From Sulfurospirillum diekertiae (GTDB taxonomy: Bacteria > Campylobacterota > Campylobacteria > Campylobacterales > Sulfurospirillaceae), in NCBI RefSeq assembly GCF_002309535.1, contig NZ_CP023275.1, forward strand, positions 744,001 to 808,000: a stretch of DNA of 64,000 bases. Direction: 5' to 3'. The notes below the pieces were generated by a model. That model had not been told where the DNA came from. It saw only the letters and a program-made list of their open reading frames with translations, and did not search any database. Below are positions 2,351 to 63,250 of the stretch, piece after piece. The first letter of the stretch is position 1. The number at the start of each line of letters is the position of its first letter. A program made the translations under genes and the position numbers.

Positions 2351-2385
2351 AAAGCTTTACATGTAACGTTTACATGTAAAGCTTT
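2351..2385 (+). terminator. Strong hairpin made of paired TTTACATGTAA palindromes
   Basis: Arms of 16 bp (2351-2366 and 2370-2385) are perfect reverse complements around the 3-nt loop CGT, and a T run ends the second arm. It lies 21 bp after the Ser-rich gene and before the dnaE promoter. Fits a rho-independent terminator. Confidence 0.75.
2369..2380. repeat. Dispersed palindrome TTTACATGTAAA
   Basis: Perfect intergenic copy forming the right arm of the 2351-2385 hairpin. The left arm holds the 11/12 copy TTTACATGTAAC (2356-2367). Confidence 0.9.
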
Positions 2386-2422
2386 TTAGGCAACACTTAC
2401 ACCCTCTTAAGTCCTCATTCGC

Positions 2423-2428
2423 TACAAT
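2423..2428 (+). promoter_or_regulatory. Putative -10 box of dnaE
   Basis: TACAAT lies 39 bp upstream of the dnaE ATG in an AT-rich region after the preceding terminator. No -35 is evident, as is usual for housekeeping promoters in this class. Confidence 0.45.
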
Positions 2429-2467
2429 AGATTCTTAATGAAAAAACTAAATTATTGATGAGAAACT

Positions 2468-5400
2468 ATGAGCGACATACCGTACACCCATTTACATTTA
2501 CATACTGAATATTCACTTCTTGATGGCGCCAATAAAATAGGCAAGCTGGTAAAAAAACTCAAAGCTCAAGGAGTGACATCCGTTGCGATAACCGATCATG
2601 GAAATATGTTTGGCGCGATTGATTTTTACAAAACCATGCGTAAAGAGGGCATTAAGCCGATCATTGGCATGGAAGCGTACATTCACAACCAAGAGGATAT
2701 CAGCGATAAAACCACCAAACAACGTTTTCACCTCTGCTTGTATGCCAAAAACGAAGTAGGGTATAAAAACTTGATGTATCTGGCTTCCATGAGTTACATC
2801 AAAGGCTTTTACTACTATCCGCGCATCAACAAAAAGATGTTGCGTGAGCACTCTGAGGGGCTGGTCTGCTCGGGGGCATGTTTACAAGGCGAAGTGAACT
2901 GGCATCTCAATCTGAACAACAAACGTAATGTCCAATTTGGTGCGCGAGGGTATGAACGCGCCAAAGAAGTGGCACTCGAATATAAAGATATTTTTGGTGA
3001 GGACTTTTACTTAGAGGTAATGCGTCATGGCATTACCGATCAACATTTCATCGACGATGATATTTTGCGTATTTCCAAAGAGACGGGCATCAAGCTCATT
3101 GCGACCAATGACACTCACTACTTAGAACAAGACAATGCCGAAGCACACGAGGCATTTATGTGTATTGCGATGAATAAAGAGTTTGACGATCCTAATCGTC
3201 TTCGTCACTCCGTGCATGAGTTTTACCTCAAATCCCCTGCGCAAATGAGCGATCTTTTTGCGGATATCCCTGAAGCCATTTCCAATACCCAAGAGATTGT
3301 GGAGAAGTGTAATTTAGAGATTAAACTGGGCGATCCAACCCCTCCAAAGTTTAAATTTACCAAAGAGTATGCCGCCAAAGAGGGGCTTAGCTTTGAGAGC
3401 GATGACGAGTTTTTTGCGTACCACAGTCGTAAAGGACTCGAAAAGCGTCTTTTAAATGTTGATGTCAGTAAGCATGAAGAGTATCGCGCCAGACTGGAAC
3501 GGGAAATTGACATTATCTGCAAGATGAAATTCCCTGGTTATATGCTCATCGTTTGGGATTTTATCCGTGAAGCCAAAGAGCGCGGTGTTCCTGTGGGACC
3601 AGGCCGTGGTTCAGCAGCAGGTAGTTTGGTCGCGTTTTCGCTTTTTATCACTGACATTGACCCGATGCCCTATAACCTGCTCTTCGAGAGGTTCTTGAAT
3701 CCTGAACGTATTAGTATGCCCGATATTGATATTGACTTTTGCCAGAGTCGTCGTGGTGAAATCATTGATTACGTTGTTGAAAAATACGGACGCTACAACG
3801 TCGCGCAAGTCATTACCTTTGGTAAACTTTTAGCCAAAGGTGTCATTCGTGATGTTGCGCGCGTTCTCGCCATTCCTTATGCCGAAGCCGATGCAATGGC
3901 AAAACTGATCCCCGATGAACTGGGCATCACACTTAATGGTGTGGGTGTTGAGGGAGAAGAAGGGTACAAACCAGGCGCCTTTCAAAAAGAGCCAAAACTT
4001 CGTGAACTCATTGAAAGCAGCCCTAAGATGCAACGCGTGTGGAAGTTTGCGTTAGCACTTGAAGGACTGAACCGCAACTCTGGTATGCATGCCGCAGGTG
4101 TGGTCATCAGCGATGAAGAGTTATGGCATAAAACACCGCTCTATCAGCCTTCTGGCGAAGATCATCTCGTCACACAGTATTCACTCAATTACCTTGAAGA
4201 TGTTGACTTAATCAAGTTCGACTTTTTGGGTCTGAAGACCCTGACCGTCATTGATAATGCGCTTAAGCTTATTAAACTTCGTTACAAAAAAGAGATTGAT
4301 TTTACGATCATTGATATGAACGATCCTAAGGTGTATGAACTGATTCAAAGTGGCGAAACAGTGGGACTGTTTCAGATTGAGTCCAGTGGTATGCAATCTT
4401 TGAATGAGCGTCTCAAACCAACCAACTTTGAAGATCTTATTGCCGTACTTGCCCTTTATCGCCCAGGCCCAATGGAATCAGGTATGTTGGATGACTTTAT
4501 CGAACGAAAGAATGGGCTAAAAGAGATTAGTTACTTCTTTGATGAATTTACCGAACCCCTTCGTCCTATTTTAGAGCCAACGTATGGCGTTATTGTCTAT
4601 CAAGAACAGGTTATGCAGATCGTTCAAGCCATTGGTGGTTTTAGCCTTGGCGAAGCGGATTTGATTCGTCGTGCGATGGGTAAGAAAAAGATCGACTACA
4701 TGAAACAAAAAGCCGAAGAGTTCGCGCAAGGTGCCGTTAATCAAGGCTTAGATCGCGCCCATGCGATTGAGCTTTTTGGCTTGATTGAGAAGTTTGCGGG
4801 ATACGGTTTTAACAAATCGCACTCTGCGGCCTACGCGATGGTTACCTTTGAAACGGCGTATCTGAAATGCTACTATCCGCAAGAGTTTATGGCGGCACTT
4901 CTCACATCAGAGCAAGACAATACCGATAAAATCGTTAAATACATCGATGAGGTCAAACGTCTTGGATTGAAGCTTTTACCGCCATCTATTCAGCACAGTT
5001 TGATTGCATTTAGTGCGATTACTGACACAGATGGTCAAGAGGCAATTCTCTTTGGTATGGGTGCGATCAAAGGGGTTGGAAATGCGGCGATCAGTAAAAT
5101 CTTAGAAGCCAGAGAGGGCGCACTCTTTGCAGATATGAGCGATTTTATCTCCCGTATTGACAGCTCTAAGGTCAATAAAAAAGTATTAGAGTCTTTTATC
5201 AAATCAGGAAGTTTTGATGACTTTGGCTACTCAAGACGCGCTTTGCTTGAAAATATTGATAGCATTATTGATGCAAGTGCTGAGTGCAGTCGGGCGAAGA
5301 AGATGGCAGAGTATTCCCTCTTTGGCGATGCTGAAGAGATGATGACGGTACAAGTAAACATCGAAAATATTCCCGAATTTGATAATAAGCGCATGTTAGA

Positions 5401-6013
5401 GCTTGAAAAAGAGACGATAGGTTTTTATATTTCAGGTCATCCATTAGATGCATTTAGAGCGGAAATTGATGAAATGAATTACACCCTTTCCAGCGAGCGT
5501 GATCAGGTTGAAGATGGCAGTAAGGCACTTTTTATTGGAAAAGTGGAAGGCATCACCGAGAAAATTAGCAAAAAAGGCAACAAGTTTGGCATTATCTCCT
5601 TGATGGATTTTCACGGTTCTATGGAACTGACTGTCTTTGAAAAACAGCTGGAATTGCTCTCCCGAATGGATTTGGAAAAACCACTCTGCTTTAAAGTCGA
5701 TGTGAGCAATGATGGGCAAAATACCAAAATGCGCGTTATGAAAATTATGGAGCTTAGTGACGCGAAAAAAGAGAAGATTGAAACCAAAGTCATTGAAGTG
5801 CCCCAAGAGCCCAAAGTGCTTCTCCTTGATCTCAGTGATGACACGAGCAAACTGGAATTTTTATACCAAATTGTGCGTCAAAATTCTGGACGTAGACCTC
5901 TTCATCTCGTCATCACGTCAAAACTGCAAGATGTCGTGATCGAAACTGGCTTTAGTGTGGATGATAGTATTGATGAACAGATCGCAGCACTCGAGTATGT
6001 CAAGGTCATTTAG
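2468..6013 (+). CDS. dnaE: DNA polymerase III alpha subunit
   Basis: Catalytic subunit of the replicative polymerase. The 1181 residues match the family length. An N-terminal PHP domain starts at once (HLHLHTEYSLLDG). The polymerase active site has the acidic motif PDIDIDF (P418, with D419, D421 and D423 following) and a third aspartate in IKFDFLGL (D585). The GPGRGSAAGS nucleotide-binding motif, helix-hairpin-helix region (GFNKSHSAAYA) and a C-terminal OB fold (about 1010-1110) are present. It follows a terminator and has its own candidate promoter, so it is probably monocistronic; it converges on flgS over a shared terminator. Nothing is missing. Confidence 0.98.
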   Translation: MSDIPYTHLHLHTEYSLLDGANKIGKLVKKLKAQGVTSVAITDHGNMFGAIDFYKTMRKEGIKPIIGMEAYIHNQEDISDKTTKQRFHLCLYAKNEVGYKNLMYLASMSYIKGFYYYPRINKKMLREHSEGLVCSGACLQGEVNWHLNLNNKRNVQFGARGYERAKEVALEYKDIFGEDFYLEVMRHGITDQHFIDDDILRISKETGIKLIATNDTHYLEQDNAEAHEAFMCIAMNKEFDDPNRLRHSVHEFYLKSPAQMSDLFADIPEAISNTQEIVEKCNLEIKLGDPTPPKFKFTKEYAAKEGLSFESDDEFFAYHSRKGLEKRLLNVDVSKHEEYRARLEREIDIICKMKFPGYMLIVWDFIREAKERGVPVGPGRGSAAGSLVAFSLFITDIDPMPYNLLFERFLNPERISMPDIDIDFCQSRRGEIIDYVVEKYGRYNVAQVITFGKLLAKGVIRDVARVLAIPYAEADAMAKLIPDELGITLNGVGVEGEEGYKPGAFQKEPKLRELIESSPKMQRVWKFALALEGLNRNSGMHAAGVVISDEELWHKTPLYQPSGEDHLVTQYSLNYLEDVDLIKFDFLGLKTLTVIDNALKLIKLRYKKEIDFTIIDMNDPKVYELIQSGETVGLFQIESSGMQSLNERLKPTNFEDLIAVLALYRPGPMESGMLDDFIERKNGLKEISYFFDEFTEPLRPILEPTYGVIVYQEQVMQIVQAIGGFSLGEADLIRRAMGKKKIDYMKQKAEEFAQGAVNQGLDRAHAIELFGLIEKFAGYGFNKSHSAAYAMVTFETAYLKCYYPQEFMAALLTSEQDNTDKIVKYIDEVKRLGLKLLPPSIQHSLIAFSAITDTDGQEAILFGMGAIKGVGNAAISKILEAREGALFADMSDFISRIDSSKVNKKVLESFIKSGSFDDFGYSRRALLENIDSIIDASAECSRAKKMAEYSLFGDAEEMMTVQVNIENIPEFDNKRMLELEKETIGFYISGHPLDAFRAEIDEMNYTLSSERDQVEDGSKALFIGKVEGITEKISKKGNKFGIISLMDFHGSMELTVFEKQLELLSRMDLEKPLCFKVDVSNDGQNTKMRVMKIMELSDAKKEKIETKVIEVPQEPKVLLLDLSDDTSKLEFLYQIVRQNSGRRPLHLVITSKLQDVVIETGFSVDDSIDEQIAALEYVKVI

Positions 6014-6015
6014 TC

Positions 6016-6027
6016 TTTACATGTAAA
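6016..6027. repeat. Dispersed palindrome TTTACATGTAAA
   Basis: Perfect copy (extended to CTTTACATGTAAAG) between the convergent dnaE and flgS genes, next to the bidirectional terminator hairpin. Confidence 0.9.
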
Positions 6028-6046
6028 GAGGTGCAAAGCCTCTTTA
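6024..6046. terminator. Bidirectional terminator between dnaE and flgS
   Basis: TAAAGAGG (6024-6031) and CCTCTTTA (6039-6046) form a perfect 8-bp stem with a 7-nt loop between two convergent genes. One arm overlaps the flgS stop codon. Confidence 0.55.
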
Positions 6047-7060
6047 GCGTGGAATGCGAATCTCAAATCCTTTGGGGTTTTCCAAGAGATTGATTCTTCC
6101 GTTGTGGGCTTGGATGATCTGCAAAGATAGTGCAAGTCCCAGACCATTGCCTTTAGTTTTGGTCGTTTTAAAGGGCTCAAAAAGAATGTTTTTATTCTCG
6201 ATGGGCTTGCCATCATCCTTTACATGTAAAAGTATAAATTCACAATCTTCTACGTAAGTTATCCTGACATTGCCACTTTCTTTCTCGCACTCTTCAATCG
6301 CGTCAATCGCATTAAAAATAAAGTTTTGAAGCACCAAATTGAGCAGTTCAAAGTCCGCTTTAATCTCAACATGGGGTAGATCAAAATGATAGGTCACCTC
6401 TTTAGTGTAAGAGTAATGAGAAATGGCCTGTTCACACTCTTTGATGAGGCGGTCAAGGTAAAAATAACTTGGATTTATTTGAACATTTTTGGTAAAGAGT
6501 AGGGTTGCTTTAATGATACGTTCCACTCTCCAAATGGCTTTTTTGATTTCGGTAACCAGAGGTTTAACACTAGGATCCACTTTTTTGAGTAACGTAGAGG
6601 CAAGCAAGGAGACGGAGCCTATGGGATTACGAATTTCATGGGAAAGATGTGCGGCAACTTGTCCCATGGAAACAAGACGTTCTTGGCGTTTTCCTTCCGT
6701 AATATCTGTAGCGGTAATGATTTTCTTATCGCTTTTGGTGACACTTTTAACCAGGTAAGAGCGCCCTTCAAAATCGACTTCACTCTCTTCTTCAATGCTC
6801 AATCCTTCTAAAATAGCTTCCATTTTTTTAGCTTCGCTATTTTGCAAAAAAATGGCACCATCTTCATCAAAAACCCACAAAGCATTCGGTTGTACTTCGA
6901 TGATCTGACGAATAAAATCTTGAAGAGAGGTGTATGAAACACCTAGCTTTTTATACTCATCTTCGATGACATACGTTTGGTTAATCAGATCTGCTAACCC
7001 TTGTTTAAAGAGCTCTTTTTCTTTAGCACTAAGGCTGTTGAGTAAATTTTCATCAATCAT
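6044..7060 (-). CDS. flgS: Flagellar two-component sensor histidine kinase FlgS
   Basis: Cytoplasmic kinase which in Campylobacter and Helicobacter phosphorylates FlgR to switch on sigma-54 flagellar genes when the export apparatus is in place. The 338 residues contain no membrane helix: an N-terminal helical part with ADLINQTYVIEDEYKKL, a PAS-like region (about 50-125) with LWVFDEDGAIFLQNSEA, the phosphoacceptor box HLSHEIRNP with the histidine at residue 141, and an HATPase domain with the N box (NFIFNAIDAIEE) and a GNGLGLALS glycine box. Position 141 is the same as I recall for C. jejuni FlgS. Two palindrome copies lie in or beside it; one encodes LLHVK. FlgR is not in the window. Confidence 0.88.
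   Translation of the reverse strand: MIDENLLNSLSAKEKELFKQGLADLINQTYVIEDEYKKLGVSYTSLQDFIRQIIEVQPNALWVFDEDGAIFLQNSEAKKMEAILEGLSIEEESEVDFEGRSYLVKSVTKSDKKIITATDITEGKRQERLVSMGQVAAHLSHEIRNPIGSVSLLASTLLKKVDPSVKPLVTEIKKAIWRVERIIKATLLFTKNVQINPSYFYLDRLIKECEQAISHYSYTKEVTYHFDLPHVEIKADFELLNLVLQNFIFNAIDAIEECEKESGNVRITYVEDCEFILLHVKDDGKPIENKNILFEPFKTTKTKGNGLGLALSLQIIQAHNGRINLLENPKGFEIRIPR
6219..6230. repeat. Dispersed palindrome TTTACATGTAAA
   Basis: Perfect copy inside flgS, read as Leu-His-Val-Lys in the ATPase domain. Confidence 0.9.
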
Positions 7061-7098
7061 TTGTGATTCCCATCATCGCATAAGAAGTTTATAAAGGG

Positions 7099-7104
7099 TA
7101 TAAT
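7099..7104 (+). promoter_or_regulatory. -10 box of the class V aminotransferase gene
   Basis: Consensus TATAAT in GGGTATAATACC in the divergent gap between flgS and the aminotransferase. Transcription would begin near 7111, so a TTG start at 7117 would be almost leaderless and GTG 7129 would have an 18-nt leader without a clear ribosome site. Confidence 0.6.
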
Positions 7105-7116: not shown

Positions 7117-8409
7117 TTGGACAAAGTCGTGCAAGCAATACGCAAAAATATCATTAAAGATAAAAATATTCTCTATTTCGATTATACGGCATCAGGTCAG
7201 GCGTATAAACCGATTGAAAAACAGATGCAAGCCATCCTTAAAACCTATGCTAATACCCACTCAGAAGTTGCTTCGAGTGCCATTCAAACAAGCAAATATT
7301 ATACCAAGGCGCGTAGCGACCTCAAAATTGCACTTGAAATTGATGAGAGTTTTTATATTTTTCCGTGTGGCTCTGGTGCTACGGGAGCGATCAAAAAATT
7401 TCAAGAACTCATTGGTATTTACATTCCTCCTCGCACACTTAAACGTTTTACATGTAAACCCGAAAACCTTCCCATCGTTTTTGTGGGACCGTATGAACAC
7501 CACTCCAATGAATTGAGCTTTCGTGAAGGGTTATGTGAAGTGATCCGTGTACCCCTCGATCAAGATGAAAAAATTGATATGGATTTTTTGAAACGTAGTC
7601 TTGAAGCTAATAAAGAGCGTGAGATCATCGCCTCCTTTTCAGTCGCTTCGAATGTTACGGGCATTGTGAGTGATTATAAAAGTATCTATAAACTGATCAA
7701 ACAGTATAACGGTATCTTGTGTCTTGATGCAGCAGCGGCGTCTCCTTACATCAATGTTGACTGTCACTACTATGACGCCTTGTTTCTCTCTCCTCACAAA
7801 CTTTTGGGTGGTGTGGGTGCGTGTGGTGTTTTGGTGATGAAAAAAGAACTTTGTACCGAAACAACACCGACGTTTGCAGGGGGTGGCACGGTTGGCTATG
7901 TCTCTCGTACTTCACATACGTATCTAAGTGATATTGAATTGATTGAAGATGCAGGAACTCCTGCTATTTTGCAGTTTATACGTGCCTCTTTAGCCTATAA
8001 CCTTCGTAATGAAATCGGCTTGGAGAAGATTCATGCAAAAGAAGAGGAACTCAAATTTTATTTTGGTTCTAGGCTTCGCGTGATTGAAGGGGTTAAACTC
8101 TATTGTAAATATTCACAAGATAAACTTCCTATCTTCTCACTGAATTTTGAAGGCATCAATCCTTATGATATCTCGCAGTATCTCTCCGATCAGTTTGGCA
8201 TTCAAACCAGAGCAGGGTGCAGTTGTGCAGGTCCCTATGGGCATGACCTTTTACATCTTGTCGATGGACAAAGTTTCGATGAAAAACCGGGTTGGTTACG
8301 TATCTCTATCCATTATACCCATACCAAAAAAGAGATAGATCAATTGCTTTATGCGATTGAAAAGGGTGTCAAAGCACTCCGTAAGAAAGATACTTTACCA
8401 AAGGCTTAG
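7117..8409 (+). CDS. Class V aminotransferase, cysteine-desulfurase-like
   Basis: PLP enzyme of the SufS/NifS fold. The 430-residue product (TTG start; GTG at 7129 is the alternative) contains CLDAAAASPY and SPHKLLGGVGACG, where K228 would hold PLP, and RAGCSCAGPYG near residue 368, in the place of the desulfurase cysteine loop. The sequence around it differs from true IscS/SufS, so the substrate is uncertain; it may act on a sulfur amino acid or be a general PLP lyase. In C. jejuni a similar gene lies near flgS (from memory). A palindrome copy encodes Phe-Thr-Cys-Lys. It converges on lrgB with a 4-bp overlap. Confidence 0.82.
   Translation: MDKVVQAIRKNIIKDKNILYFDYTASGQAYKPIEKQMQAILKTYANTHSEVASSAIQTSKYYTKARSDLKIALEIDESFYIFPCGSGATGAIKKFQELIGIYIPPRTLKRFTCKPENLPIVFVGPYEHHSNELSFREGLCEVIRVPLDQDEKIDMDFLKRSLEANKEREIIASFSVASNVTGIVSDYKSIYKLIKQYNGILCLDAAAASPYINVDCHYYDALFLSPHKLLGGVGACGVLVMKKELCTETTPTFAGGGTVGYVSRTSHTYLSDIELIEDAGTPAILQFIRASLAYNLRNEIGLEKIHAKEEELKFYFGSRLRVIEGVKLYCKYSQDKLPIFSLNFEGINPYDISQYLSDQFGIQTRAGCSCAGPYGHDLLHLVDGQSFDEKPGWLRISIHYTHTKKEIDQLLYAIEKGVKALRKKDTLPKA
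7447..7458. repeat. Dispersed palindrome TTTACATGTAAA
   Basis: Perfect copy inside the aminotransferase gene, read as Phe-Thr-Cys-Lys. Confidence 0.9.
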
Positions 8410-9741: not shown

Positions 9742-9753
9742 TTTACATGTAAA
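9742..9753. repeat. Dispersed palindrome TTTACATGTAAA
   Basis: Perfect intergenic copy, 167 bp upstream of the kup start codon; not paired with a second copy. Confidence 0.9.
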
Positions 9754-11858: not shown

Positions 11859-11864
11859 TCTTTG

Positions 11865-13833: not shown

Positions 13834-14817
13834 ATGGAGTTTACATGTAAAGAGTCAAAAAGGCTTGATGCCGCGATGAGTGAGGCATTGGAGTTACCGC
13901 GCAATCAGGTCGAAAAACTGATTAAAAATGTGGGTGTTATGGTCGATGGAAAATTGTGTACAAAGTGCAGTACGAAGCTTCTGGAAGGCAATGTCATTTA
14001 TTATGAATTTGCAGAAGCTGAGCAGAGTTCAAGCGAGTATGAAGTTAATTTTGATGTGCCTATTTTGTATGAAGATGACGATCTTTTGGTGATTAATAAG
14101 CCACCTTTTTTAACGGTACATGGCGCTCCCAGTGTTAAAGAAGCAACGCTCGTGGACTGGCTGAAGTTTAAGGGTATTAATCTTTCTACTATCAGTGGTG
14201 AAGAGCGTCATGGCATTGTGCATCGCATTGACAAAGAAACCAGTGGCGCGTTAGTCATTGCTAAAAACAATGAAGCACATTTAAGTCTCTCTTCTCAGCT
14301 TGAAGATAAAAGTATGGGCAGATACTACCTTGCCATGATTGATTTACCTCTCAAAGATAATATCGTTGTTGAGCTGCCTATTGGGCGTAGTGTCAATAAT
14401 CGTCTGAAAATGGACGTCCAAAAAAAAGATGGACGCATGGCAAAAAGTGCTTTTTCTAAACTTTTGGTATCGCGTGATGGCAAAAAAGAGTTGATTGCTG
14501 CCAAGCTTTTTACAGGACGAACGCATCAGATCAGAGTGCATCTCCAAGCACTCTCCCGCCACATCTTGGGTGATAGTTTATACGGCTTTAAGAGCCAAAA
14601 TGGTACAATACCAAGAGTTATGTTACACGCTTATATTTTGTATCTTATGCATCCAAGGACAGGGCAATTATTACAAATAAATGCTCCCTTGTGGGATGAT
14701 TTTGATGCCTATTTAAGACACCATTTCAGTAAGGAAGAGGTAGATGAAAAAATTACTTTGGATAGTATCGTTAATGGCTTTAAGCTTCATGATCAGTGGT
14801 TGCGAAAAGACGCTTGA
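13834..14817 (+). CDS. RluA/RluD-family pseudouridine synthase
   Basis: Isomerises uridine to pseudouridine in rRNA. The 327 residues contain an N-terminal S4 RNA-binding domain (about 10-60) and the catalytic domain with HGIVHRIDKETSGALVIAK, where D133 is the catalytic aspartate, and GRTHQIRVHL. The start codon lies six bases before a palindrome copy, so the protein begins MEFTCKES. It is the first gene of the flpA-amiA operon and overlaps flpA by 74 bp, an unusually long overlap for an intact pair. Target site in rRNA cannot be told; RluD or RluC are both possible. Confidence 0.92.
   Translation: MEFTCKESKRLDAAMSEALELPRNQVEKLIKNVGVMVDGKLCTKCSTKLLEGNVIYYEFAEAEQSSSEYEVNFDVPILYEDDDLLVINKPPFLTVHGAPSVKEATLVDWLKFKGINLSTISGEERHGIVHRIDKETSGALVIAKNNEAHLSLSSQLEDKSMGRYYLAMIDLPLKDNIVVELPIGRSVNNRLKMDVQKKDGRMAKSAFSKLLVSRDGKKELIAAKLFTGRTHQIRVHLQALSRHILGDSLYGFKSQNGTIPRVMLHAYILYLMHPRTGQLLQINAPLWDDFDAYLRHHFSKEEVDEKITLDSIVNGFKLHDQWLRKDA
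13840..13851. repeat. Dispersed palindrome TTTACATGTAAA
   Basis: Perfect copy at codons 3-6 of the pseudouridine synthase gene, read as Phe-Thr-Cys-Lys and covering part of the translation start region. Confidence 0.9.
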
Positions 14818-16009: not shown

Positions 16010-17188
16010 ATGCCGAATTTTCATACGCAAACATTGAAACCTTTAAGCTATCCTTGTGCGTACAAAGAGACCACATTTAGTTATGAAGCGCACTCTAAGA
16101 GGGGCAATAAACTGGTGATGGCCTCAATGCAAGGAGAGCATTTACTGATTCGTATTCATCAAAAAGAGGATGGGAATTTACTGGTGAAGGGTGACAAAGT
16201 TACTCGCCCAACCCAAGCCTCTTTTTTGCAAAAAGTGTTGATTGATTTTAGAGATGCATGCGAAGCCAAAGAAATTTATTCCAATATTGAACCTAAGAAT
16301 TTTTTAGAAGTCAAGCATTCGCCTTACCTCAAAGAGATTGATTTCTTTGCACATCACTTTGACGTGAAAGGTGAAATTTGGATCGAAATCGGCTTTGGAA
16401 GTGGACGACACTTACTTCATCAGGCAAAGAAAAATCCACATATTCAGTTTATTGGTCTAGAAATTCATAAGCCATCCATTGAGCAAGTTTTAAAACAATG
16501 TGAGCTTCAATCAATTGAAAATATTTTAGTTGTCGATTATGATGCACGCTTGTTTATGGAGTTCTTGCCCTCCAATGTGGTGGGGCGTATTTTTGTACAC
16601 TTTCCTGTTCCTTGGGATAAAAAACCGCACCGCCGTGTTTTATCTGCGGCTTTCATTGAAGAGGCATTACGTGTTTTACATGTAAAGGGTACTTTGGAGC
16701 TTCGAACCGACAGTCCACTCTATTTTGAGTTCACTTTTGTACAGATGATGCAACTTTCCTGTGCCGATGTGCATGTGAAAAAAAATGCGGAACTTGAGAT
16801 TACAAGTAAATACGAAGACCGATGGCGTAAGATGGAAAAAGATATTTACGATGTCATTTTAACCAATGAAATGCTTTCTGCATCTATTTCAAAGCCTGAT
16901 ACATTGCATTTTGACGAGCATGTTGATTTTAGAAAAATTCGTGATGTTTTTAAAGATGAATTGTTACGAGGAGAGGGCTTTTTTGTCCATTTTGAAGAGC
17001 TCTTTGAAATTGATGAACACAGTGGGCTCATTCGCCTCTCTTTTGGTGCAAACGAACGTAATGAAAAGTGTTATATAGAAATTCAAAAGGGTAAAATTTC
17101 CTATCTGCCAGATGCAATTTTAGCAACGAAAAGCAACAGAGCAGCTCATACATTAATTAAAGAGTGGTTTCATGGAATATGTGATTAA
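16010..17188 (+). CDS. trmB: tRNA (guanine-N7-)-methyltransferase
   Basis: Methylates G46 of tRNA with S-adenosylmethionine. The 392 residues are much longer than the E. coli enzyme (about 240), having an N-terminal part of about 110 residues and a C-terminal extension, as in other Campylobacterota. The SAM site is WIEIGFGSGRHLL (about 123-135), and the substrate motif is FPVPWDKKPHRRRV-like (IFVHFPVPWDKKPHRR), followed by LELRTDSPLYFE. Overlaps ftsE by 17 bp. A palindrome copy encodes LHVK. Confidence 0.92.
   Translation: MPNFHTQTLKPLSYPCAYKETTFSYEAHSKRGNKLVMASMQGEHLLIRIHQKEDGNLLVKGDKVTRPTQASFLQKVLIDFRDACEAKEIYSNIEPKNFLEVKHSPYLKEIDFFAHHFDVKGEIWIEIGFGSGRHLLHQAKKNPHIQFIGLEIHKPSIEQVLKQCELQSIENILVVDYDARLFMEFLPSNVVGRIFVHFPVPWDKKPHRRVLSAAFIEEALRVLHVKGTLELRTDSPLYFEFTFVQMMQLSCADVHVKKNAELEITSKYEDRWRKMEKDIYDVILTNEMLSASISKPDTLHFDEHVDFRKIRDVFKDELLRGEGFFVHFEELFEIDEHSGLIRLSFGANERNEKCYIEIQKGKISYLPDAILATKSNRAAHTLIKEWFHGICD
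16675..16686. repeat. Dispersed palindrome TTTACATGTAAA
   Basis: Perfect copy inside trmB, read as Leu-His-Val-Lys. Confidence 0.9.
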
Positions 17189-34450: not shown

Positions 34451-34460
34451 TTACATGTAA
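34451..34460. repeat. Palindrome core TTACATGTAA before cbrR
   Basis: Ten-base core only (flanks C and T), 15 bp upstream of the cbrR start codon, so inside its probable leader. Confidence 0.75.
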
Positions 34461-44310: not shown

Positions 44311-44322
44311 TTTACATGTAAA
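44311..44322. repeat. Dispersed palindrome TTTACATGTAAA
   Basis: Perfect intergenic copy (extended CTTTACATGTAAAG), three bases from the stop of the DJ-1 family gene. Confidence 0.9.
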
Positions 44323-44907: not shown

Positions 44908-45327
44908 TTACTCCTCTGTTCTCACGATTAAGCTGGCAGGTAGATTGTACTGCTTAATCCACTCCTCTTCTTTAACACGCATTTCTCCGTGATCAATTTC
45001 ATGGTCAAAACCTAAAAGATGAAGCATTCCGTGAATAAACAAAAGGGTAATCTCTTCTTCCACACTATGTCCAAGCTCTTTAGCTTTTTGTGCCGCCAAT
45101 TCATGATTGATAACGATTGAACCTAGCGGGGCATGAGGAAAGTCATCAATGGGAAAGCTGAGGACATCCGTGGTTTTGTCTATGCCACGATGCGCCAAAT
45201 TAAGCTCTTGCATACTCTGCCCATCAATAATAAGAAGCTCAACTTCTTTTGGGGTATGTTCTTCACAAATCTGCTCCAGCATCTTTACATGTAAAGCAAT
45301 GTTGAACTCATTTTCAATCAGTAGCAT
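44908..45327 (-). CDS. ybeY: rRNA maturation endonuclease YbeY
   Basis: Metal-dependent RNase for 16S rRNA 3' end processing and 70S quality control. The 139 residues end with the zinc motif [11 protein letters not shown] (H99, H103, H109) after TTDVLSFP and [10 protein letters not shown]. Upstream of the DJ-1 gene and downstream of the Mur-like gene. A palindrome copy near the N-terminus encodes ALHVK. Confidence 0.94.
45284..45295. repeat. Dispersed palindrome TTTACATGTAAA
   Basis: Perfect copy inside ybeY, read as Leu-His-Val-Lys at residues 12-15. Confidence 0.9.
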
Positions 45328-45339: not shown

Positions 45340-46344
45340 TTAAAATAGGCTTGGTTGGATCGTAAATGATTTAACAAATAGGGACTCATAGCTCTCTTTG
45401 TCTCCTAAAATCAGAGCATATGCAAATGATTTTTGCGCTAAGATTGAGAGCTCTTCAATCGTTTCAAACAGAAACGTTTCTCCTTCGAAAGCAATGCTTT
45501 GTTGGAGTTGTTTCGGTAAAGCGAGAATCATATAAGAGCTTTCGATCATGGTTTGCATATAACTCAGTAATGAAGGCAATAAAGAAAATGTAGGCTCGAA
45601 AATCAGCACTTTGTCGCTAGCGCCAAACTCTTTTTTACAGAGTGCATGGGTGACAAACTGCGGATAAAAATGTTCACAAAACCCTAAATGCTCTAAATTA
45701 TAAGTAATTTCATGGGTATCACAAAACTGAAGTAAACAGAGGAACTCTTCCACAAAAATCGAAGGAATTTTTTGCTCGTAGAGGTAGCGCTCTTGATGCC
45801 AAAAGGAAGAGAGGAAAAGTCCTTTGGAAACAATGAGAGGTTTTACATGTAAAGCATTTTCTACACGGTGGGCAACGGGAGCAATTTTTTGCACAAGGAT
45901 GCTATCACTGAGAGAAAAATGCTCTTCCTCTTTTGCATTGAGTAATATTTTAGCAATACTAAAAAGATCACCGCGCAAACGCTTGATCGTTTTAGGGACA
46001 TGAATCATCTCCAAAAGCGCTTCTTGTACGGGTGAAAGTAGCACAATATTGAGTGATTTTTGCGTAATAGTATAACGTAGAAGCTTGATAAACATCTGCT
46101 CTATAGAAGCGACTTCGATCCATGCACATTCGTCATCTTCATTCAAAAAAGGAAGCGTCGTGACAATGGCATAAGCCCCTTTATTCAGCGCTTGATGGAT
46201 AGATTCGCGTGAAGCAGTGGTGTCTATGAAAAGATCGCCATGAGAGACACGCGAACTCTCAAGCGAAATAGAGGCAAACGCATCAATGGGAGGCAGAGTC
46301 GCAAGCTTCCCATCAATGATGCGTACAAAGTTATCTATTTTCAT
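45340..46344 (-). CDS. Mur-ligase-like protein without the ATP-binding motif
   Basis: Not clearly recognised. The ATG at 46344 overlaps the metG stop codon (ATGA), so it is translationally coupled. In the 334 residues the first 90 resemble the substrate-binding domain of MurE/MurF (SLESSRVSHGDLFIDTTASRESIHQALNKGAYAIVTT split over residues 27-64), but the expected GTNGKT-type P-loop and central ligase motifs are absent. The rest has no motif I can name. A C. jejuni hypothetical gene seems to occupy the same place next to metG (from memory). A palindrome copy encodes ALHVK. Confidence 0.7.
   Translation of the reverse strand: MKIDNFVRIIDGKLATLPPIDAFASISLESSRVSHGDLFIDTTASRESIHQALNKGAYAIVTTLPFLNEDDECAWIEVASIEQMFIKLLRYTITQKSLNIVLLSPVQEALLEMIHVPKTIKRLRGDLFSIAKILLNAKEEEHFSLSDSILVQKIAPVAHRVENALHVKPLIVSKGLFLSSFWHQERYLYEQKIPSIFVEEFLCLLQFCDTHEITYNLEHLGFCEHFYPQFVTHALCKKEFGASDKVLIFEPTFSLLPSLLSYMQTMIESSYMILALPKQLQQSIAFEGETFLFETIEELSILAQKSFAYALILGDKESYESLFVKSFTIQPSLF
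45842..45853. repeat. Dispersed palindrome TTTACATGTAAA
   Basis: Perfect copy inside the Mur-like gene, read as Leu-His-Val-Lys. Confidence 0.9.
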
Positions 46345-48513: not shown

Positions 48514-49342
48514 AGCACTTCCGAACACGTTCTATCTCTGCATGCGAGCCAAAGAAGCATGGTGTGGTGTCATGAGGATGTGATGGTGCCAGCTCTAAAA
48601 TTCTACGTTTTCCGTTGATCGCCGCACCACCCGCTTTTTCATAGACAAATGCAAAAGGGAAGACTTCAAAAATCATACGGAGTTTACCTTTGGGTACGTC
48701 ACTCGTTGCAGGGTAAGAGAAGAGTCCGCCACCTTTGAGAAGAATCTGATGCAAATCGGGTACCATACCGCCAGAGTAACGTAAACGGTAGCCATCTGCA
48801 AAAATGGCATCAATCATTGCTTTGTGTTTTGGCTCCCAGCCCATTTGGGTTGCACCAGGTGCGTTGAGTTTACCTTTTTCTTTGAGCTTAATTTCTTTAA
48901 TGAAAACGAATTCCCCCGCTTTATTTAAACGGTACATCTTGACATCTTCTTGCGCGATCACGAGCTCAACACGTGGTCCATAGACAACATACACCGCTGC
49001 TTTAAGGTGTTTTCCCTCATAGCCACCTTCGTAGATGCCAAAGATGGAACCAACACTCAGATTAACATCGACAAGGCTAGAACCATCCAATGGGTCGTAT
49101 CCCACACCGTAAATCCCGTTTACATGTAAAGGGGTTTTACCTTCTTTCTCTTCACTGACAATCTCTTTAATCGAGGCAACTTTTGCAAACTCTTCTTCGA
49201 TGATAAGATCGCTTTTAATGTCTAATTTAAGCTGTGTGTCGCCTGTGGAGTTAATATTCTCAGAATATCCTGTGTCATCAAACTCAATGGCCTCTCTGAT
49301 GCGCTTTGCTGAGCGCTTGATTGCTTCATAAATTTCTTGCAT
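48506..49342 (-). CDS. fbp: Fructose-1,6-bisphosphatase, class I
   Basis: Gluconeogenic phosphatase. ATG 49342 ([15 protein letters not shown]) is chosen with AAAAAGG nine bases before it; the open frame extends into mobB. The 278 residues contain the metal-binding [18 protein letters not shown] and the [14 protein letters not shown] and [13 protein letters not shown] segments. Shorter than the E. coli enzyme (332), as in other epsilons. Follows mobB on the same strand. A palindrome copy encodes PLHVN. Confidence 0.95.
49119..49130. repeat. Dispersed palindrome TTTACATGTAAA
   Basis: Perfect copy inside fbp, read as Leu-His-Val-Asn, six residues before the GYDPLDGSS motif. Confidence 0.9.
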
Positions 49343-50418: not shown

Positions 50419-52009
50419 TAGAGACATCGTCACCTAAAAGGTGGCGATAGACCACATAATTTGCAAGCACCTTTTTACCGTACTCGCGACTCTCTTCGTT
50501 ATTCATCGTCTCCATGCTCCAAAATGGTTCATATTCCCCTTGAGAAAACGCTCCACCTTGCAGATGTTTTTTGGTAAATCCCATGCCACCATTGTAGGCA
50601 TAAGCCACAAAAAGAGGATGGTACAAGCTTTTTTCTAAGAAATTGAGGTGAATATTTCCAAAAAGATACGCAATACGAGGGTCGAACATATTGGAGATGG
50701 AAAACTCTTCAAGTTTCTCTTTTTTAGCAATATCCCGTGCCACAAATGGCATAAACTGCATCATTCCTAGAGCATATGACGTGGAGACAACAGAGGGAAT
50801 AAAACGACTCTCTTGACGCGCGATAGCAAGCATCAACGCTTGGCGGTGTATTGAGTAAGTGCTCAGCTCTTCAGGATAAGGAATAGGGTAATAGCTTTTT
50901 GTATAGTGCGTGACACGTTCCATCAAATAGCTGTAATGCGGTAAGGTATTGGCATATTTAAAGCTTTGCGCTAAGGCTTCAACTTCTTCAGCACTCATTT
51001 TATAGACTCTGTTCATAACTTTTGGCCATGCAAAAGGATCACTGATATTAAATGTTGGGTGCGTTCCTTCGAGTACAGGCGATACAATGTTCTGCACAGG
51101 ACGATCCAATTTTTCATAGGCGTAGAGAGCGTACATATTAATGTCACTATCGTGTATGATACGCTCTAAAAAGTGGCTATCTTTGGTCACTAAATATTGC
51201 CAAAAGAGGGCTTTGTCTTTTTCTTCACCTCTCGTAGCCCGCTCATTTGAGAGTTCAAAAAAGTGGAGAGCTTGCTCTTTTTCTTGGTATTTGAGGGCAT
51301 TAAGTCCCAGATAAAAAAGTGATTTAGCGTTTACATGTAAAGATGGATTTACATGTAAAAGTGATTTTTGGACAGTGTCAAGTTTATCGTTTTGGACGGT
51401 GCTATACACGAATTGGTTAAATTTTGGCGAGTTCGAAAGCCTATCTATCTGAGCTTGGGGAATGAGCTGTTGGTTAAAAATAGCCATCTTGTACGATGAA
51501 ATACTTCCATTGAAAAGGCTTAAAAATGTGTTTTCACCACTGTTCAGTGCTACTTCATAAACATCATCACTTTCCATCAATGTAATGAGATTAACAAGCT
51601 CTTTATTGTGTTTTAGACGAGGTTTAATGAGTTTCAGTTGGCTTTTAGGAAGCGAAGTGATTTTGGCAGTGTTGATGCCGATATTAAGGCATTCATCATC
51701 TTCTTTCATTAATGAATTGATGTCAAGATCAATACACTTTGAGATCTTTTTGTATTCTAGATTATCCATTTTTTTAGCGAAAAGATGGAAAAAACGGATG
51801 TTCATCGTGTGGACCATCCCAAAGAGCGCTTTGGCTTCTTTGGGAGTTGTCTCATCACGTTGAAGGTATTCGTAAATATAAAAATCTTTGGCAAGGCTTC
51901 GTGGTTTATCAGCAAAAAAACTAAAATTCACAGCTTCTTCAGCAAAAAGATCGACACAGACGCAAAGGCAGAGGAAAAGTCCAATCAGTAATTTATAAAA
52001 CATTGGCAA
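50360..52009 (-). CDS. slt: Soluble lytic murein transglycosylase
   Basis: Periplasmic enzyme that cuts glycan with formation of 1,6-anhydro ends. The 549 residues: signal peptide (1-23), a long helical superhelix (about 40-365), and a C-terminal SLT domain with the catalytic glutamate in AIARQESRF near residue 400, then SYALGMMQFMP and FVAYAYNGG. Ends by overlapping a convergent lipoprotein gene. Two palindrome copies 18 bp apart encode LLHVNPSLHVN. Confidence 0.93.
   Translation of the reverse strand: MPMFYKLLIGLFLCLCVCVDLFAEEAVNFSFFADKPRSLAKDFYIYEYLQRDETTPKEAKALFGMVHTMNIRFFHLFAKKMDNLEYKKISKCIDLDINSLMKEDDECLNIGINTAKITSLPKSQLKLIKPRLKHNKELVNLITLMESDDVYEVALNSGENTFLSLFNGSISSYKMAIFNQQLIPQAQIDRLSNSPKFNQFVYSTVQNDKLDTVQKSLLHVNPSLHVNAKSLFYLGLNALKYQEKEQALHFFELSNERATRGEEKDKALFWQYLVTKDSHFLERIIHDSDINMYALYAYEKLDRPVQNIVSPVLEGTHPTFNISDPFAWPKVMNRVYKMSAEEVEALAQSFKYANTLPHYSYLMERVTHYTKSYYPIPYPEELSTYSIHRQALMLAIARQESRFIPSVVSTSYALGMMQFMPFVARDIAKKEKLEEFSISNMFDPRIAYLFGNIHLNFLEKSLYHPLFVAYAYNGGMGFTKKHLQGGAFSQGEYEPFWSMETMNNEESREYGKKVLANYVVYRHLLGDDVSISNLFENLLSPSLTDRFRN
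51331..51342. repeat. Dispersed palindrome TTTACATGTAAA
   Basis: Perfect copy inside slt, first of a close pair, read as Leu-His-Val-Asn. Confidence 0.9.
51349..51360. repeat. Dispersed palindrome TTTACATGTAAA
   Basis: Perfect copy inside slt, 18 bp (exactly six codons) from the previous one, read in the same frame as Leu-His-Val-Asn. Confidence 0.9.
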
Positions 52010-53584: not shown

Positions 53585-55829
53585 TTTTTAATTTCTCTGC
53601 TACCAGTTCATTCACGACGGTTGGGTTTGCTTTGCCACCGCTTTTTTTGAGAACTTGTCCCACAAAAAAGCCAAAAAGATTGGTATTGCCTGCTTTATAT
53701 TTTGCGACACTCTCAGAGTTTTTGGCGATGACTTCTTCAATCATTGGCTTTAATTTCGCAGGATCGCTGATTTGTGTCAATCCTTTTGTTTCAACGATGG
53801 CTTTTGGATGTTCTCCCGATTTTGCCATCTCTTCAAAGACTTGTTTGGCAATTTTAGTGGAAATTGTTCCTTCATCGATCATGGTGACAAGTTCGGCGAT
53901 CTCTTTGGCGCTAAAGTTTAATACACTAGCACTTTTGAGTTCTCTTGCCACTTCATTGGCGACACTATTCGCAAGGCTTATAGGACTATGGATGTAAGAG
54001 AGCGTCTCTTCATAAAAAGAAGAGAGTTGTGTATCGCGCGCTAAAATATTGGCTACTTCATGATTAAGCCCAAACGTTTTTGTGTACTTCGTAAAAAGTG
54101 CTTGCTCCGCTTCGCTCATAGGCGCTACTTCACCTTCTACGATAGGGAGCTTTTTAGCCTCAGGTTTAGGGGTAGATTCGGTTGCTTCAACCTTTTTAGC
54201 CCATGAGTCTTTAAGCCCTACAATTTTGTTAAAGACAGGCTTTGCATCGGTGTAATCAACGGGGTCTGCGTAAAAATACCCTTGTCTTTCAAACTGAAAT
54301 CTAACATCAGGTTTTTCGGTAATCACGGCAGGTTCAACAAAGGCATTTGTGATGACATGTAAAGAATCAGGATTGAGATCTTCTAAGCCATCAGGGGCAT
54401 CACTCGAATACAACCGCTCATAAAGCCTGACTTCGACTTTTTTGGCATGCTTTGCACTGACCCAGTGAATAGCACTTTTTGTTTTAATCCCACTGGTGTC
54501 TTCACCACTTTTGGAGTTGGGATGATACTCCGCTTTGAGTTCTACAATGTTGCCACTAGCGTCTTTGATAACCTCTTTACATGTAAGAATATACGCATGT
54601 TTCAAACGCACGGATTGCTCAGGTGTCAGACGGTAATAGCCTGCTGGAGGATTCTCCATAAAATCATCTCTCTCAATGTAAATTTCCCGTGAGAAAGGCA
54701 GTTTACGTGAGCCCTCTTTAGGGACATCATGCGGGTAATAAGAAGCATCAATCTCTTCAACGCCGTCATAATTTTCGATGGTGACTTTAAGCGGATCAAG
54801 CACACACATCACACGAGGTACTTTTTGATTGAGATCGTCTCTGATGCAAAATTCAAGTTGCGCTACATCGACCATGGAGTTTGCTTTGGCAATACCAATT
54901 TGATCGCAGAAATTCAAGATGGATTCAGGGGTGTAGCCTCTTCGTTTGTAGCCTGCAATGGTCGGAAGGCGAGGGTCATCCCAGCCATTGACATAACTAC
55001 CATTAACGAGTTCTAAGAGTTTTCGTTTGCTCATCACCGTATAGTTGATGCCCAGACGTGCAAACTCATATTGGTAAGGGCGAGGGAGTTTTAATTCGAG
55101 TTCATCTAAAACCCAGTCATAAATCTCACGGTTGTTTTCAAACTCTAACGTACAGATAGAGTGCGTCACACCTTCGATGTAGTCGGACAAGCAGTGCGCA
55201 AAGTCGTACATCGGGTAGATGCACCACTCATCACCCGTTCTAAAATGATGTGCATGGCGAATGCGGTATAAAAGAGGGTCGCGCATTTTCATATTGGCAG
55301 CACTCATGTCAATTTTGGCACGTAAAACGTGTTCGCCATCTTTAAACTCACCTTTTCTCATGCGTTCTAACAGGTCAAGATTTTCTTCAATGCTACGCTG
55401 CGCAAATTTACTTCTACGACCTGCTTCTTTGATCGTACCGCGGTATTCACGGATTTCTTCTTCATTGAGGCTGTCCACATAGGCTTTACCCATTTTGACC
55501 AGTTGTACGGCATAGTCGTAAATTTTAGGAAAATAATCAGAGGCAAAGCGCACGTGATTCGCCCATTCAAACCCAAGCCATGTCACAGCATCTTTTAGCG
55601 CTTCAACATATTTCATATCTTCGGTTGTGGGGTTTGTGTCATCCATTCTGAGATTACAATGCCCTTTATAATCACGCGCAATGCCAAAATTGATACAGAT
55701 AGACTTAGCATGACCAATGTGCGGGAATCCATTAGGTTCTGGAGGAAACCTGGTGATAATTTCATGATACTTTCCAGACTGTAAGTCCTCTTCCACAATG
55801 GTACGTAAAAAATCTTTGCTCTCACTCAT
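53577..55829 (-). CDS. glnS: Glutaminyl-tRNA synthetase with C-terminal GatB/YqeY domain
   Basis: Charges tRNA-Gln directly with glutamine. The 750 residues: catalytic domain with an intact HIGH (37-40, in FPPEPNGFPHIGHAKS), the HFRTGDEWCIYPMYDFAHCLSD segment, VMSKRK near 264-269, the beta-barrel anticodon domains (about 335-545), a Pro/Lys/Ala linker (about 555-580), and a YqeY/GatB tail domain (about 590-745) with SLANSVANEVARELK and LFGFFVGQVLKKSGGKANP. The tail is a general tRNA-binding helper, best known as a fusion in Deinococcus GlnRS. Many epsilons have no GlnRS and use GluRS2 plus GatCAB, so this may be acquired. First gene of glnS-gltX2-yggT-slt. Confidence 0.94.
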   Translation of the reverse strand: MSESKDFLRTIVEEDLQSGKYHEIITRFPPEPNGFPHIGHAKSICINFGIARDYKGHCNLRMDDTNPTTEDMKYVEALKDAVTWLGFEWANHVRFASDYFPKIYDYAVQLVKMGKAYVDSLNEEEIREYRGTIKEAGRRSKFAQRSIEENLDLLERMRKGEFKDGEHVLRAKIDMSAANMKMRDPLLYRIRHAHHFRTGDEWCIYPMYDFAHCLSDYIEGVTHSICTLEFENNREIYDWVLDELELKLPRPYQYEFARLGINYTVMSKRKLLELVNGSYVNGWDDPRLPTIAGYKRRGYTPESILNFCDQIGIAKANSMVDVAQLEFCIRDDLNQKVPRVMCVLDPLKVTIENYDGVEEIDASYYPHDVPKEGSRKLPFSREIYIERDDFMENPPAGYYRLTPEQSVRLKHAYILTCKEVIKDASGNIVELKAEYHPNSKSGEDTSGIKTKSAIHWVSAKHAKKVEVRLYERLYSSDAPDGLEDLNPDSLHVITNAFVEPAVITEKPDVRFQFERQGYFYADPVDYTDAKPVFNKIVGLKDSWAKKVEATESTPKPEAKKLPIVEGEVAPMSEAEQALFTKYTKTFGLNHEVANILARDTQLSSFYEETLSYIHSPISLANSVANEVARELKSASVLNFSAKEIAELVTMIDEGTISTKIAKQVFEEMAKSGEHPKAIVETKGLTQISDPAKLKPMIEEVIAKNSESVAKYKAGNTNLFGFFVGQVLKKSGGKANPTVVNELVAEKLKNG
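54577..54588. repeat. Near-copy of the dispersed palindrome (11 of 12)
   Basis: TTTACATGTAAG inside glnS, read on the minus strand as Leu-Thr-Cys-Lys. Confidence 0.7.
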
Positions 55830-56243
55830 GTTCTTAAAACCTTTTGTTTTATTCCTCTTATAAACATGTATTTTATCATGCTCTTTATTAATTAATAGGA
55901 TTTATGGGTATTGACAATTTTATCTTATGTGCGATAAGGAGTGTATTAAAGAATCCAATTTTAAGTTGAGATCGCAAGATTAAACCTGTTGGTGAGATGC
56001 TTTAATACCCCTCAATGATAGCAATCACTACGAAAATTTAAATTTTATGAGCATGTTGCACTTATTCCATTAATGACACAAAAAAGCTTGAGATCAATGT
56101 ACCGTATAATCTTTAGTGTTTGAATTTTTGGAAGTAAATTTCACTATTTATACAATCCTTACATGTAAAATATTTTGAAATTATTAAAGAGGAATGTCTT
56201 TGAATTTGGTGATTAAAAAAGAGAATAGTGAGACTACATTCAT
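55830..56243. other. Intergenic region upstream of glnS
   Basis: AT-rich 414 bp with no convincing gene. The part next to glnS should hold its promoter. A palindrome core TTACATGTAA lies at 56159-56168, and a small TTATC...GATAA inverted repeat at about 55921-55937. The right part runs toward the small membrane-protein gene. Marks the start of the accessory region. Confidence 0.55.
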
Positions 56244-61533: not shown

Positions 61534-61545
61534 GAGGAATAGCCT

Positions 61546-63228
61546 ATGAAAATATTCAAACTAAAACGTATTATCACCCTATCGCTCACAGCAAGTTCAC
61601 TGCTCTTTGGTACACCACCTACAATCGGTGATGTTGAACGCCAAGCTCAACCGCCCAAAGAAGTTCAAGAGAGTCCAAACACTCTTATTCCAACACTTCC
61701 CAGCGACCCCTTGAAAGAGCCAATGGTCGAAGAGAATGGAAAACTCATTGAAGTAAAAACTTTTACGATCACGGGAGCTTTACATGTAAAGCAAGAATTT
61801 CTCCAAGAACGATTAAAACCCTATGAAAATCAAAGCCATAGCTTTGCAGAACTTCAAAAGATTACTTCTTTGATTACGAAAATATACCGTGAAGAAGGTT
61901 ACTTCGTGGCACGAGCCTATATTCCTAAACAAAATATGAAAGAGGGTATTTTAGAGATTGCTGTGGTTGAAGGTACATATGGCGTTTTCCATCTTAACAA
62001 TAGCTCTTTAGTGTCTGATAAACATGTACAAGCCATGTTAAATGCTGTTAAAGATGAAAATGTTATCTCCGTTAATACCTTAGAGCGAGCCATGCTCATC
62101 ATCAATGATACCCCCGGTGTAAAAGTCACAGGAGCTGATGTTAAGCCAGGTGCTGCAGTTGGGACATCCGACTTTGATATGACCACCGAAGCCACGAATC
62201 CCTATAGTGCTTATATTGTAGGGGATAACTATGGCAGTAAATACACAGGGCGTTATAGAACCAATGTAGGCGTAAGTGCGAACTCTCCTTTGGGATACGG
62301 CGATAAACTAGGTATGAACGGTGTAATGTCCACGACTTCCGATCTGAAAAATGGAAAGATCTACTATAACTTCCCCTTGATGGCAAATGGTCTTAGGGGT
62401 GAACTCACTGCTTCTCGTACAACCTATTCCTTAGCCGAAGAGTATGCCGCCTTAGATGCCTTGGGTCATTCCACCACACTGGAAGCCTCTTTGATCTACC
62501 CACTCATCAAAACACGTCTTGAAACTTTAGATGTCACCTTAGGGTATGCGCATAAAAATATGAAAGATGAAGTGCGAAGTACCGGTACTGTGACCCCAAA
62601 AGAGTCTGATGCGGCTAATCTTACCTTTGCCTATATGCGTAATTGCCTTCTCTTTGGCTTGAACAGTACTGCCAATGCCAGTATTACACTCACGAAAGGT
62701 AACCTTAGCTTTCATGATGCCGATGCACTGATCCAAGACCTTACAGGGGCTCAAACCAATGGAGATTACACTAAAGTGAGTGGTTCACTGGAAAAGTCCA
62801 TTCAATTAAACCCAGAGTATGCCCTTACCACAAGCCTTCGATTCCAAAAAGCGCTAAATAGTAAAAACCTTGATGGCAGTGAAGACTTCTCACTAGGAGG
62901 AGCTTATGGGGTCAGAGCTTTCCCTGATGGTGAACACAGTGCTGAAAATGGCTATCTCCTAGGAGCAGAACTCTTCTATACCCTTCCTCGCGTTGAAGGT
63001 ATCAATCATAAAGTCAGTCTCTTTGCCGATACCGGCTATGCCAAAATGGAAAATGCTATCAGTGGGAGTGAAGGAAGACAGCTCAGTGACATAGGTTTAG
63101 GTTATCAAGCTTCCTTCAAACAGTTTTTTACCAAAGCCCAAATTGCCAGAGTCATAGGTGGAGAAAAGGTAGAGAGCGAGTCTGAACACTCTACAAAACT
63201 ACTACTTCAAATCGGGTATGTGTATTAA
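61546..63228 (+). CDS. Two-partner secretion outer-membrane transporter (TpsB, ShlB/FhaC family)
   Basis: Pore that exports the TpsA next to it. The 560 residues: signal peptide (1-24, ending LLFGTP), a Pro-rich linker, POTRA domains (about 60-140 and 142-200) with LTSL-like interfaces and YREEGYFVARAYIP, and a 16-strand beta barrel ending in the terminal aromatic LQIGYVY. The barrel has the conserved GAYGVRAFPDGEHSAENG motif in loop 6. AGAGGAATAGCC gives a good ribosome site. A palindrome copy encodes ALHVK at the POTRA start. Confidence 0.92.
   Translation: MKIFKLKRIITLSLTASSLLFGTPPTIGDVERQAQPPKEVQESPNTLIPTLPSDPLKEPMVEENGKLIEVKTFTITGALHVKQEFLQERLKPYENQSHSFAELQKITSLITKIYREEGYFVARAYIPKQNMKEGILEIAVVEGTYGVFHLNNSSLVSDKHVQAMLNAVKDENVISVNTLERAMLIINDTPGVKVTGADVKPGAAVGTSDFDMTTEATNPYSAYIVGDNYGSKYTGRYRTNVGVSANSPLGYGDKLGMNGVMSTTSDLKNGKIYYNFPLMANGLRGELTASRTTYSLAEEYAALDALGHSTTLEASLIYPLIKTRLETLDVTLGYAHKNMKDEVRSTGTVTPKESDAANLTFAYMRNCLLFGLNSTANASITLTKGNLSFHDADALIQDLTGAQTNGDYTKVSGSLEKSIQLNPEYALTTSLRFQKALNSKNLDGSEDFSLGGAYGVRAFPDGEHSAENGYLLGAELFYTLPRVEGINHKVSLFADTGYAKMENAISGSEGRQLSDIGLGYQASFKQFFTKAQIARVIGGEKVESESEHSTKLLLQIGYVY
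61779..61790. repeat. Dispersed palindrome TTTACATGTAAA
   Basis: Perfect copy inside tpsB (extended GCTTTACATGTAAAGC), read as Leu-His-Val-Lys. Confidence 0.9.
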
Positions 63229-63238
63229 TTAATATTCT

Positions 63239-63250
63239 TTTACATGTAAA
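63239..63250. repeat. Dispersed palindrome TTTACATGTAAA
   Basis: Perfect intergenic copy 10 bp after the tpsB stop codon, not paired into a hairpin. Confidence 0.9.

Follow-up and report, generated by a model that had tools for sequence, protein, structure and literature searches.

A ten-base palindrome held at about 1,200 places in the chromosome of Sulfurospirillum diekertiae and an orphan adenine methyltransferase that accompanies it

The DNA uptake sequences (DUS) of Neisseria and the uptake signal sequences (USS) of Pasteurellaceae are on record with inverted pairs at terminators, with dialects and with typical flanks, and the known DUS and USS are not palindromes. In Campylobacter jejuni the orphan methyltransferase CtsM sets marks at RAATTY that are required for DNA uptake, and about 28,000 RAATTY sites are present in Campylobacter coli. 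Here we describe the perfect palindrome TTACATGTAA, which is found in 28 copies in a 64-kb stretch of Sulfurospirillum diekertiae DNA (contig NZ_CP023275.1, positions 744001–808000 of the complete 2,814,086-bp chromosome; hereafter the window) and in 1,211 copies on the whole chromosome, about one per 2.3 kb. The reading which we favour, although tentatively, is that of a chromosomal self-identity tag that acts in the manner of a DNA-uptake signal and has a CATG-centred orphan methyltransferase as its probable partner. An open literature search revealed no published description of the motif, whether in Sulfurospirillum or in its relatives, and none had been known to the authors of the initial annotation of the window.

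This annotation had pointed to a great excess of a 12-mer, TTTACATGTAAA, which was borne out by all counts. The window contains 19 perfect copies and seven further copies at one mismatch, whereas 100 dinucleotide shuffles yielded 0.57 on average and never more than 3. Genome-wide the 12-mer occurs 774 times, against 0 occurrences of a reversed control and about one expected. From a 464-kb sample taken round the chromosome the 10-mer TTACATGTAA emerged as the strongest word, with 227 copies versus 0.4–1.0 expected, depending on the Markov order, while on the whole chromosome its 1,211 copies compare to 7 for the reversed control and about 2 expected. A genome count against a Markov expectation had been posed beforehand as a refuting test, and the count is far from expectation. 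Without the outer T and A the word, TACATGTA, is rare in the 464-kb sample. The C and G reported as usual flanks of the 12-mer hold, as does the location of 14 of its 19 copies within genes. The surroundings of TTACATGTAA are symmetric, also within genes, with A at position +1, G at +2 and AT/T-rich sequence from +4 to +9.

To follow the motif between species, the syntenic regions of four relatives were aligned with the window. G013, which is 82% identical at the nucleotide level, has letter-perfect copies at 23 of the 24 TTACATGTAA sites that could be aligned, and G012 has them at 21 of 24; random 10-mers survive in 16–20% of cases in G013 and in 16–22% overall. Genic and intergenic sites behave alike in G013 (15 of 16 and 8 of 8 identical; Fisher test 1e-11 and 2e-6, respectively), and the identity profile is at background level immediately beyond the ten bases. 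The motif is thus present at the same positions in sister genomes, a comparison that had likewise been named as a refuting test. Selection or drive acts on exactly ten bases, six of which are invariant between lineages; therefore the 12-mer description is too long and the true unit is the 10-mer. The relative G009, which has only 49 copies and is counted as motif-less, retains 3 of 23 aligned positions intact, like random DNA. Its leftover one-off variants strike the core too, as neutral decay would, and a search for a replacement palindrome in this genome found none.

The placement of the 227 sites in the 464-kb sample was determined with our own simple gene-calling script (coding fraction 0.88). 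Within genes 129 sites (57%) were located and between genes 98, the latter 43% falling in 11.5% of the bases. The density per kb rises from 0.31 in genes to 0.95 in divergent, 1.8 in tandem and 5.2 in convergent gaps, and promoter regions are avoided. Inside genes the motif is read as LHV in 87 cases and as FTC in 41, while the third frame, which contains a stop codon, was used once. Among the intergenic sites 47% start no more than 30 nt after a stop codon, a zone that comprises 12.5% of intergenic positions (7e-17). Neighbouring copies 10–30 nt apart were found 16 times versus 4.9 expected (no more than 11 in any of 300 placements), and these close pairs fold into stable, terminator-like hairpins behind stop codons. 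According to this pattern, copies sit where they are least harmful or act as terminator hairpins. A motif serving mainly as a transcription-terminator or RNA-hairpin module would give such pairs, but the genic copies, nearly all of them single sites and as conserved as the intergenic ones, refute this as the main role and make it most improbable as an explanation. A secondary role of the motif in termination is nevertheless likely.

The symmetry of the motif could also reflect an abundant dimeric chromosome-organising protein of the nucleoid-associated, segregation or nucleoid-occlusion type, which would bind as a dimer on bent DNA. Perfect dyad symmetry, symmetric AT-rich flanks that are kept in genes too, strong conservation and the avoidance of promoter regions all suit such a binding site. 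The density of the motif is, however, even in 21 samples round the chromosome, with no gradient between origin and terminus of replication (ori/ter). In addition, the motif is patchily distributed and has been lost from relatives that are healthy, and the terminator pairs as well as the correlation with a methyltransferase described below would be left unexplained. We regard this alternative as unlikely.

Mobile DNA is poor in the motif. An integrated element of 26 kb has 1 site versus 12.7 expected, and two related S. diekertiae plasmids have 4 sites each versus about 17 expected. Together with a spacing of about one site per 2.3 kb, this depletion would fit a Chi-like site for an exonuclease such as AddAB, or a mark by which a defence system tells self from non-self, in both cases shielding chromosomal DNA. 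The Chi sites known so far, however, are short, lack symmetry and are read on a single strand, and a motif used by a core recombination enzyme would not be expected to be patchy within genera. A role of this kind therefore appears improbable.

The integrated element itself (G000:C1, about 36.2–62.1 kb; L080:2699 to L081:8610) is almost motif-free and carries genes for an integrase, Z1 and AIPR defence-type proteins, a C5 cytosine methylase, a Fic protein and a TrwC relaxase. Viral contigs were considered as carriers of the motif and rejected, since most of their matches are unrelated paired sites. In contigs L173, L179–L182, L186, L187 and L190 pairs of TTACATGTAA lie 20 nt apart with related spacers (TTACACG-like) and are probably operators unrelated to the bacterial motif. 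Contig L177 (IMGVR_UViG_3300026382_000037), with 5 copies in 14.5 kb, is near chromosomal density and possibly represents a phage or prophage whose host carries the motif.

High copy numbers are distributed patchily among the 397 Campylobacterota genomes that were counted, nearly all others having 0–10 copies. They are seen in most of the genus Sulfurospirillum (about 1,000–1,500 in most members), in further genera of the same family (at most 657), in scattered members of one other family (340–380) and in one genome of a third (1,059). A scan of a sequence collection for close pairs retrieved mostly Sulfurospirillum, Campylobacterales, Sulfurimonadaceae and Helicobacteraceae metagenome-assembled genomes, and its few matches outside the phylum showed no motif density. 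Across lineages ACATGT is the invariant core, while the flanks are lineage-specific and form dialects. For this comparison one reversed word served as control for ACATGT; the sampled loci were small for several genomes, and G010, G011 and G020 were left out. ACATGT is equally frequent in S. diekertiae (G000), G017 and G021 (660–710 per Mb), but TT and AA flank 74% of the copies in G000 and only 22% in G021, a genome in which TG and GT are common half-site flanks. G212 has 2,143 ACATGT versus 398 control words and only 96 TTACATGTAA; there and in G344 CT/AG flanks occur often among few readable sites. No excess exists in G009 (562 versus 563).

A gene outside the window (2537754–2538728 of the chromosome) encodes a D12-class (PF02086) adenine methyltransferase of 325 amino acids. 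It is solitary at a fixed locus, with a cheY-like gene on one side and a conserved gene on the other, and no nuclease gene that could serve as restriction partner adjoins this locus. Orthologues with 62–97% identity (type M1) are present in 15 members of the genus, all of them motif-rich. A second type (M2), about 55% identical to M1, was found in four or more genera, which show an ACATGT excess with relaxed flanks. The ratio f of 10-mers to ACATGT minus control ranges from 0.79 to 1.00 with M1 and from 0.06 to 0.42 with M2, across genera and with kinship ignored. G009 and G020 have neither the methyltransferase nor the motif and are placed between M1-bearing clades in a five-protein tree, in which their mutual grouping has no support; motif and enzyme have therefore been lost together at least once. 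Of 31 genomes with a methyltransferase homologue, 29 show an ACATGT excess; the ACATGT ratio has a median of 3.6 in carriers and 1.5 in non-carriers (p = 8e-6, kinship ignored). Relatives of the enzyme include proteins at 30–40% identity that are named after the CATG-methylating M.HpyI, and the product of Helicobacter pylori hpyIM methylates CATG. A CATG-centred specificity of the orphan methyltransferase is a lead that this likeness provides.

The methyltransferase gene (L056:17751–18728 and orthologues) evolves fast, with 62–74% identity between species versus 84–93% for its neighbours. A second D12 methyltransferase, sharing 54% identity with the chromosomal enzyme, is encoded on the S. diekertiae plasmids (L321:1692–2732; L322:6933–7829); its gene is intact in pSDCE1 and broken in pSDIE1. 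Methyltransferases of the Type III/beta class (PF01555) were rejected as recogniser, being absent from S. diekertiae and ten other motif-rich genomes.

With an enzyme of this kind at hand, the motif could build up as proposed for the cyanobacterial highly iterated palindrome HIP1, that is by the orphan methyltransferase itself, through methyl-directed repair, site protection or a role in replication or segregation, and with no DNA uptake. We judge this to be rather unlikely. Both words are highly iterated palindromes with a methyltransferase-type core, the deviations of TTACATGTAA variants gather at the outer positions as in HIP1, and the type of methyltransferase tracks the dialect. Biased repair should, however, consume one-off variants, and these are not depleted (39 versus 15.6 expected in the 464-kb sample). 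HIP1 is not known to cluster at stop codons, to form terminator pairs or to be scarce in mobile DNA, and several motif-rich genomes are without the methyltransferase.

Among the three candidate roles listed in the initial annotation, self-recognition or uptake, now with a methyltransferase as partner, is favoured because of the terminator pairs, the dialects, the depletion in mobile DNA and the joint loss with the orphan enzyme. A nucleoid-occlusion or ori/ter role is weakened by the even density, and a purely mutational origin like that of HIP1 by the undepleted one-off variants and the extreme conservation. In the proposed mechanism the orphan enzyme would act as an N6-adenine methyltransferase on the CATG centre of TTACATGTAA, and the competence machine, consisting of a Cts-type secretin/ATPase operon and ComEC, both present in the motif-bearing genome, would prefer DNA with the methylated tag. 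The identity of the reader of the tag is likewise putative. Biased uptake and recombination would then renew the sites. Such a drive would explain the conservation of single sites without a fitness role for each of the 1,200, and also the avoidance of promoters and genes, the terminator pairs, the dialects, the scarcity in recent arrivals and the decay once the recogniser goes.

Several observations weigh against a self-identity tag of this kind. Competence genes do not predict the motif, because ComEC (23 of 24 genomes of the genus) and the secretin (35 of 36 genomes) are found in motif-less genomes as well. No receptor for the motif was found, the search covering only the two pilins beside priA. 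About ten genomes with an ACATGT excess, among them G017, G010, G192, G157, G323, G383 and G347, lack a full-length homologue of the methyltransferase, while G093 and G190 have the enzyme and not the motif; with exceptions in both directions the enzyme is therefore a strong correlate and not a proven recogniser. Ten bp exceed the usual recognition length of type II enzymes. Finally, DUS and USS are non-palindromic and oriented, whereas TTACATGTAA is a perfect palindrome.

Loss of ComEC or of the secretin was discarded as cause of motif loss, as both are present in motif-less genomes, and so was loss of the ctsP-like Cts ATPase gene in G009, which tblastn finds intact. The pilins beside priA were also rejected as receptor of the dialect, since they are 38–41% identical between two genomes of one species while the motif is unchanged. 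These two type IV pilin genes (L192:15118–16150, L220–L237) are hypervariable, most of their neighbours being highly conserved. In the Cts-type competence operon of G015 (L196, G015:C1:1469001–1489000) several genes are split over reading frames according to tblastn, which may reflect real decay or sequencing error.

If the tag reading is true, sequence tags as in Neisseria and Haemophilus and methyl marks as in C. jejuni would be joined in one self-recognition system for natural transformation, a reason for highly iterated palindromes would be at hand that is testable in non-pathogenic laboratory organisms, and Sulfurospirillum would gain a practical handle for transformation. Even without a mechanism, a ten-base word held at about 1,200 places is a clear and testable puzzle.

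Within the window, the copies listed in the initial annotation were largely confirmed: 17 of the 19 starts of the 12-mer are exact, those given as 51331 and 51349 should be 51330 and 51348, and one copy of the 10-mer at 41966–41975, occurring as TATTACATGTAATA, had been overlooked. Two hairpin pairs follow genes at the left end. The copies at 1685–1694, 6 nt past the stop of a gene ending at 1678, and 1707–1716 form the first, and those at 2357–2366, 27 nt past the stop at 2329, and 2370–2379 (12-mer at 2369) the second, with −19.5 kcal/mol. A third pair, at 51331–51340 and 51349–51358, is genic. Directly past stop codons lie the copies at 6017–6026 (dnaE, 2468–6013), 44312–44321 (intergenic, behind the minus-strand gene 44326–44904) and 63240–63249 (intergenic, stop at 63228); further intergenic copies are at 9743–9752, 34451–34460 and 56159–56168. 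Copies are found within an flgS-like histidine kinase gene (6220–6229), a SufS/cysteine-desulfurase-like gene (7448–7457), trmB (16676–16685) and tyrS (24074–24083) and at the start of an RluA-family gene (13841–13850). The remaining ones, at 27508–27517, 32365–32374, 33954–33963, 34233–34242, 38746–38755, 45285–45294, 45843–45852, 49120–49129, 54577–54586 and 61780–61789, are genic. As a separate observation, the palindromes ATGCAT, CAATTG, AGATCT and CTTAAG are strongly under-represented in the 464 kb of S. diekertiae, which suggests restriction systems, past or present.

Compared to known systems, TTACATGTAA resembles DUS and USS in hundreds to thousands of copies of a 9–12-mer, in the excess outside genes, in inverted terminator pairs, in an AT-rich flank, in dialects whose inner core is conserved and in decay in some relatives. 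It differs in phylum and in being patchy across genera with a candidate methyltransferase. With HIP1 (GCGATCGC) and its alternates it shares high iteration, palindromy, a methyltransferase-linked core, deviations at outer positions and lineage-specific alternates; GCGATCGC and the GC-rich alternates belong to cyanobacteria, however, whereas TTACATGTAA is AT-rich and found in Campylobacterota, and its placement at stop codons and terminators and its strict 10-mer set it apart. The orphan enzyme is of the D12 class like the M.HpyI/NlaIII family (CATG), but has no adjacent restriction partner and only 30–40% identity. The CtsM/RAATTY system is alike in phylum, in an orphan adenine methyltransferase, in an abundant palindrome regarded as a mark of self DNA and in a Cts-type operon, while RAATTY has 6 bp and about 28,000 sites and TTACATGTAA 10 bp, about 1,200 sites and a CATG centre. 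We describe the motif as working like an uptake tag and do not file it as a member of any of these classes, because it departs from DUS in its palindromy and from HIP in sequence, phylum and undepleted one-off variants, and because the decisive features of a CtsM system, a methylated site and an uptake that needs this methylation, are predictions for it. A more far-reaching and doubtful proposal is that of a palindromic, methylation-coded uptake signal in Campylobacterota whose dialect would shift whenever horizontal transfer replaces the orphan methyltransferase of a lineage; one transferable enzyme would then redefine self. The self-identity tag would be the Sulfurospirillum counterpart of C. 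jejuni CtsM/RAATTY, with the genomic architecture of the Neisseria and Haemophilus uptake sequences.

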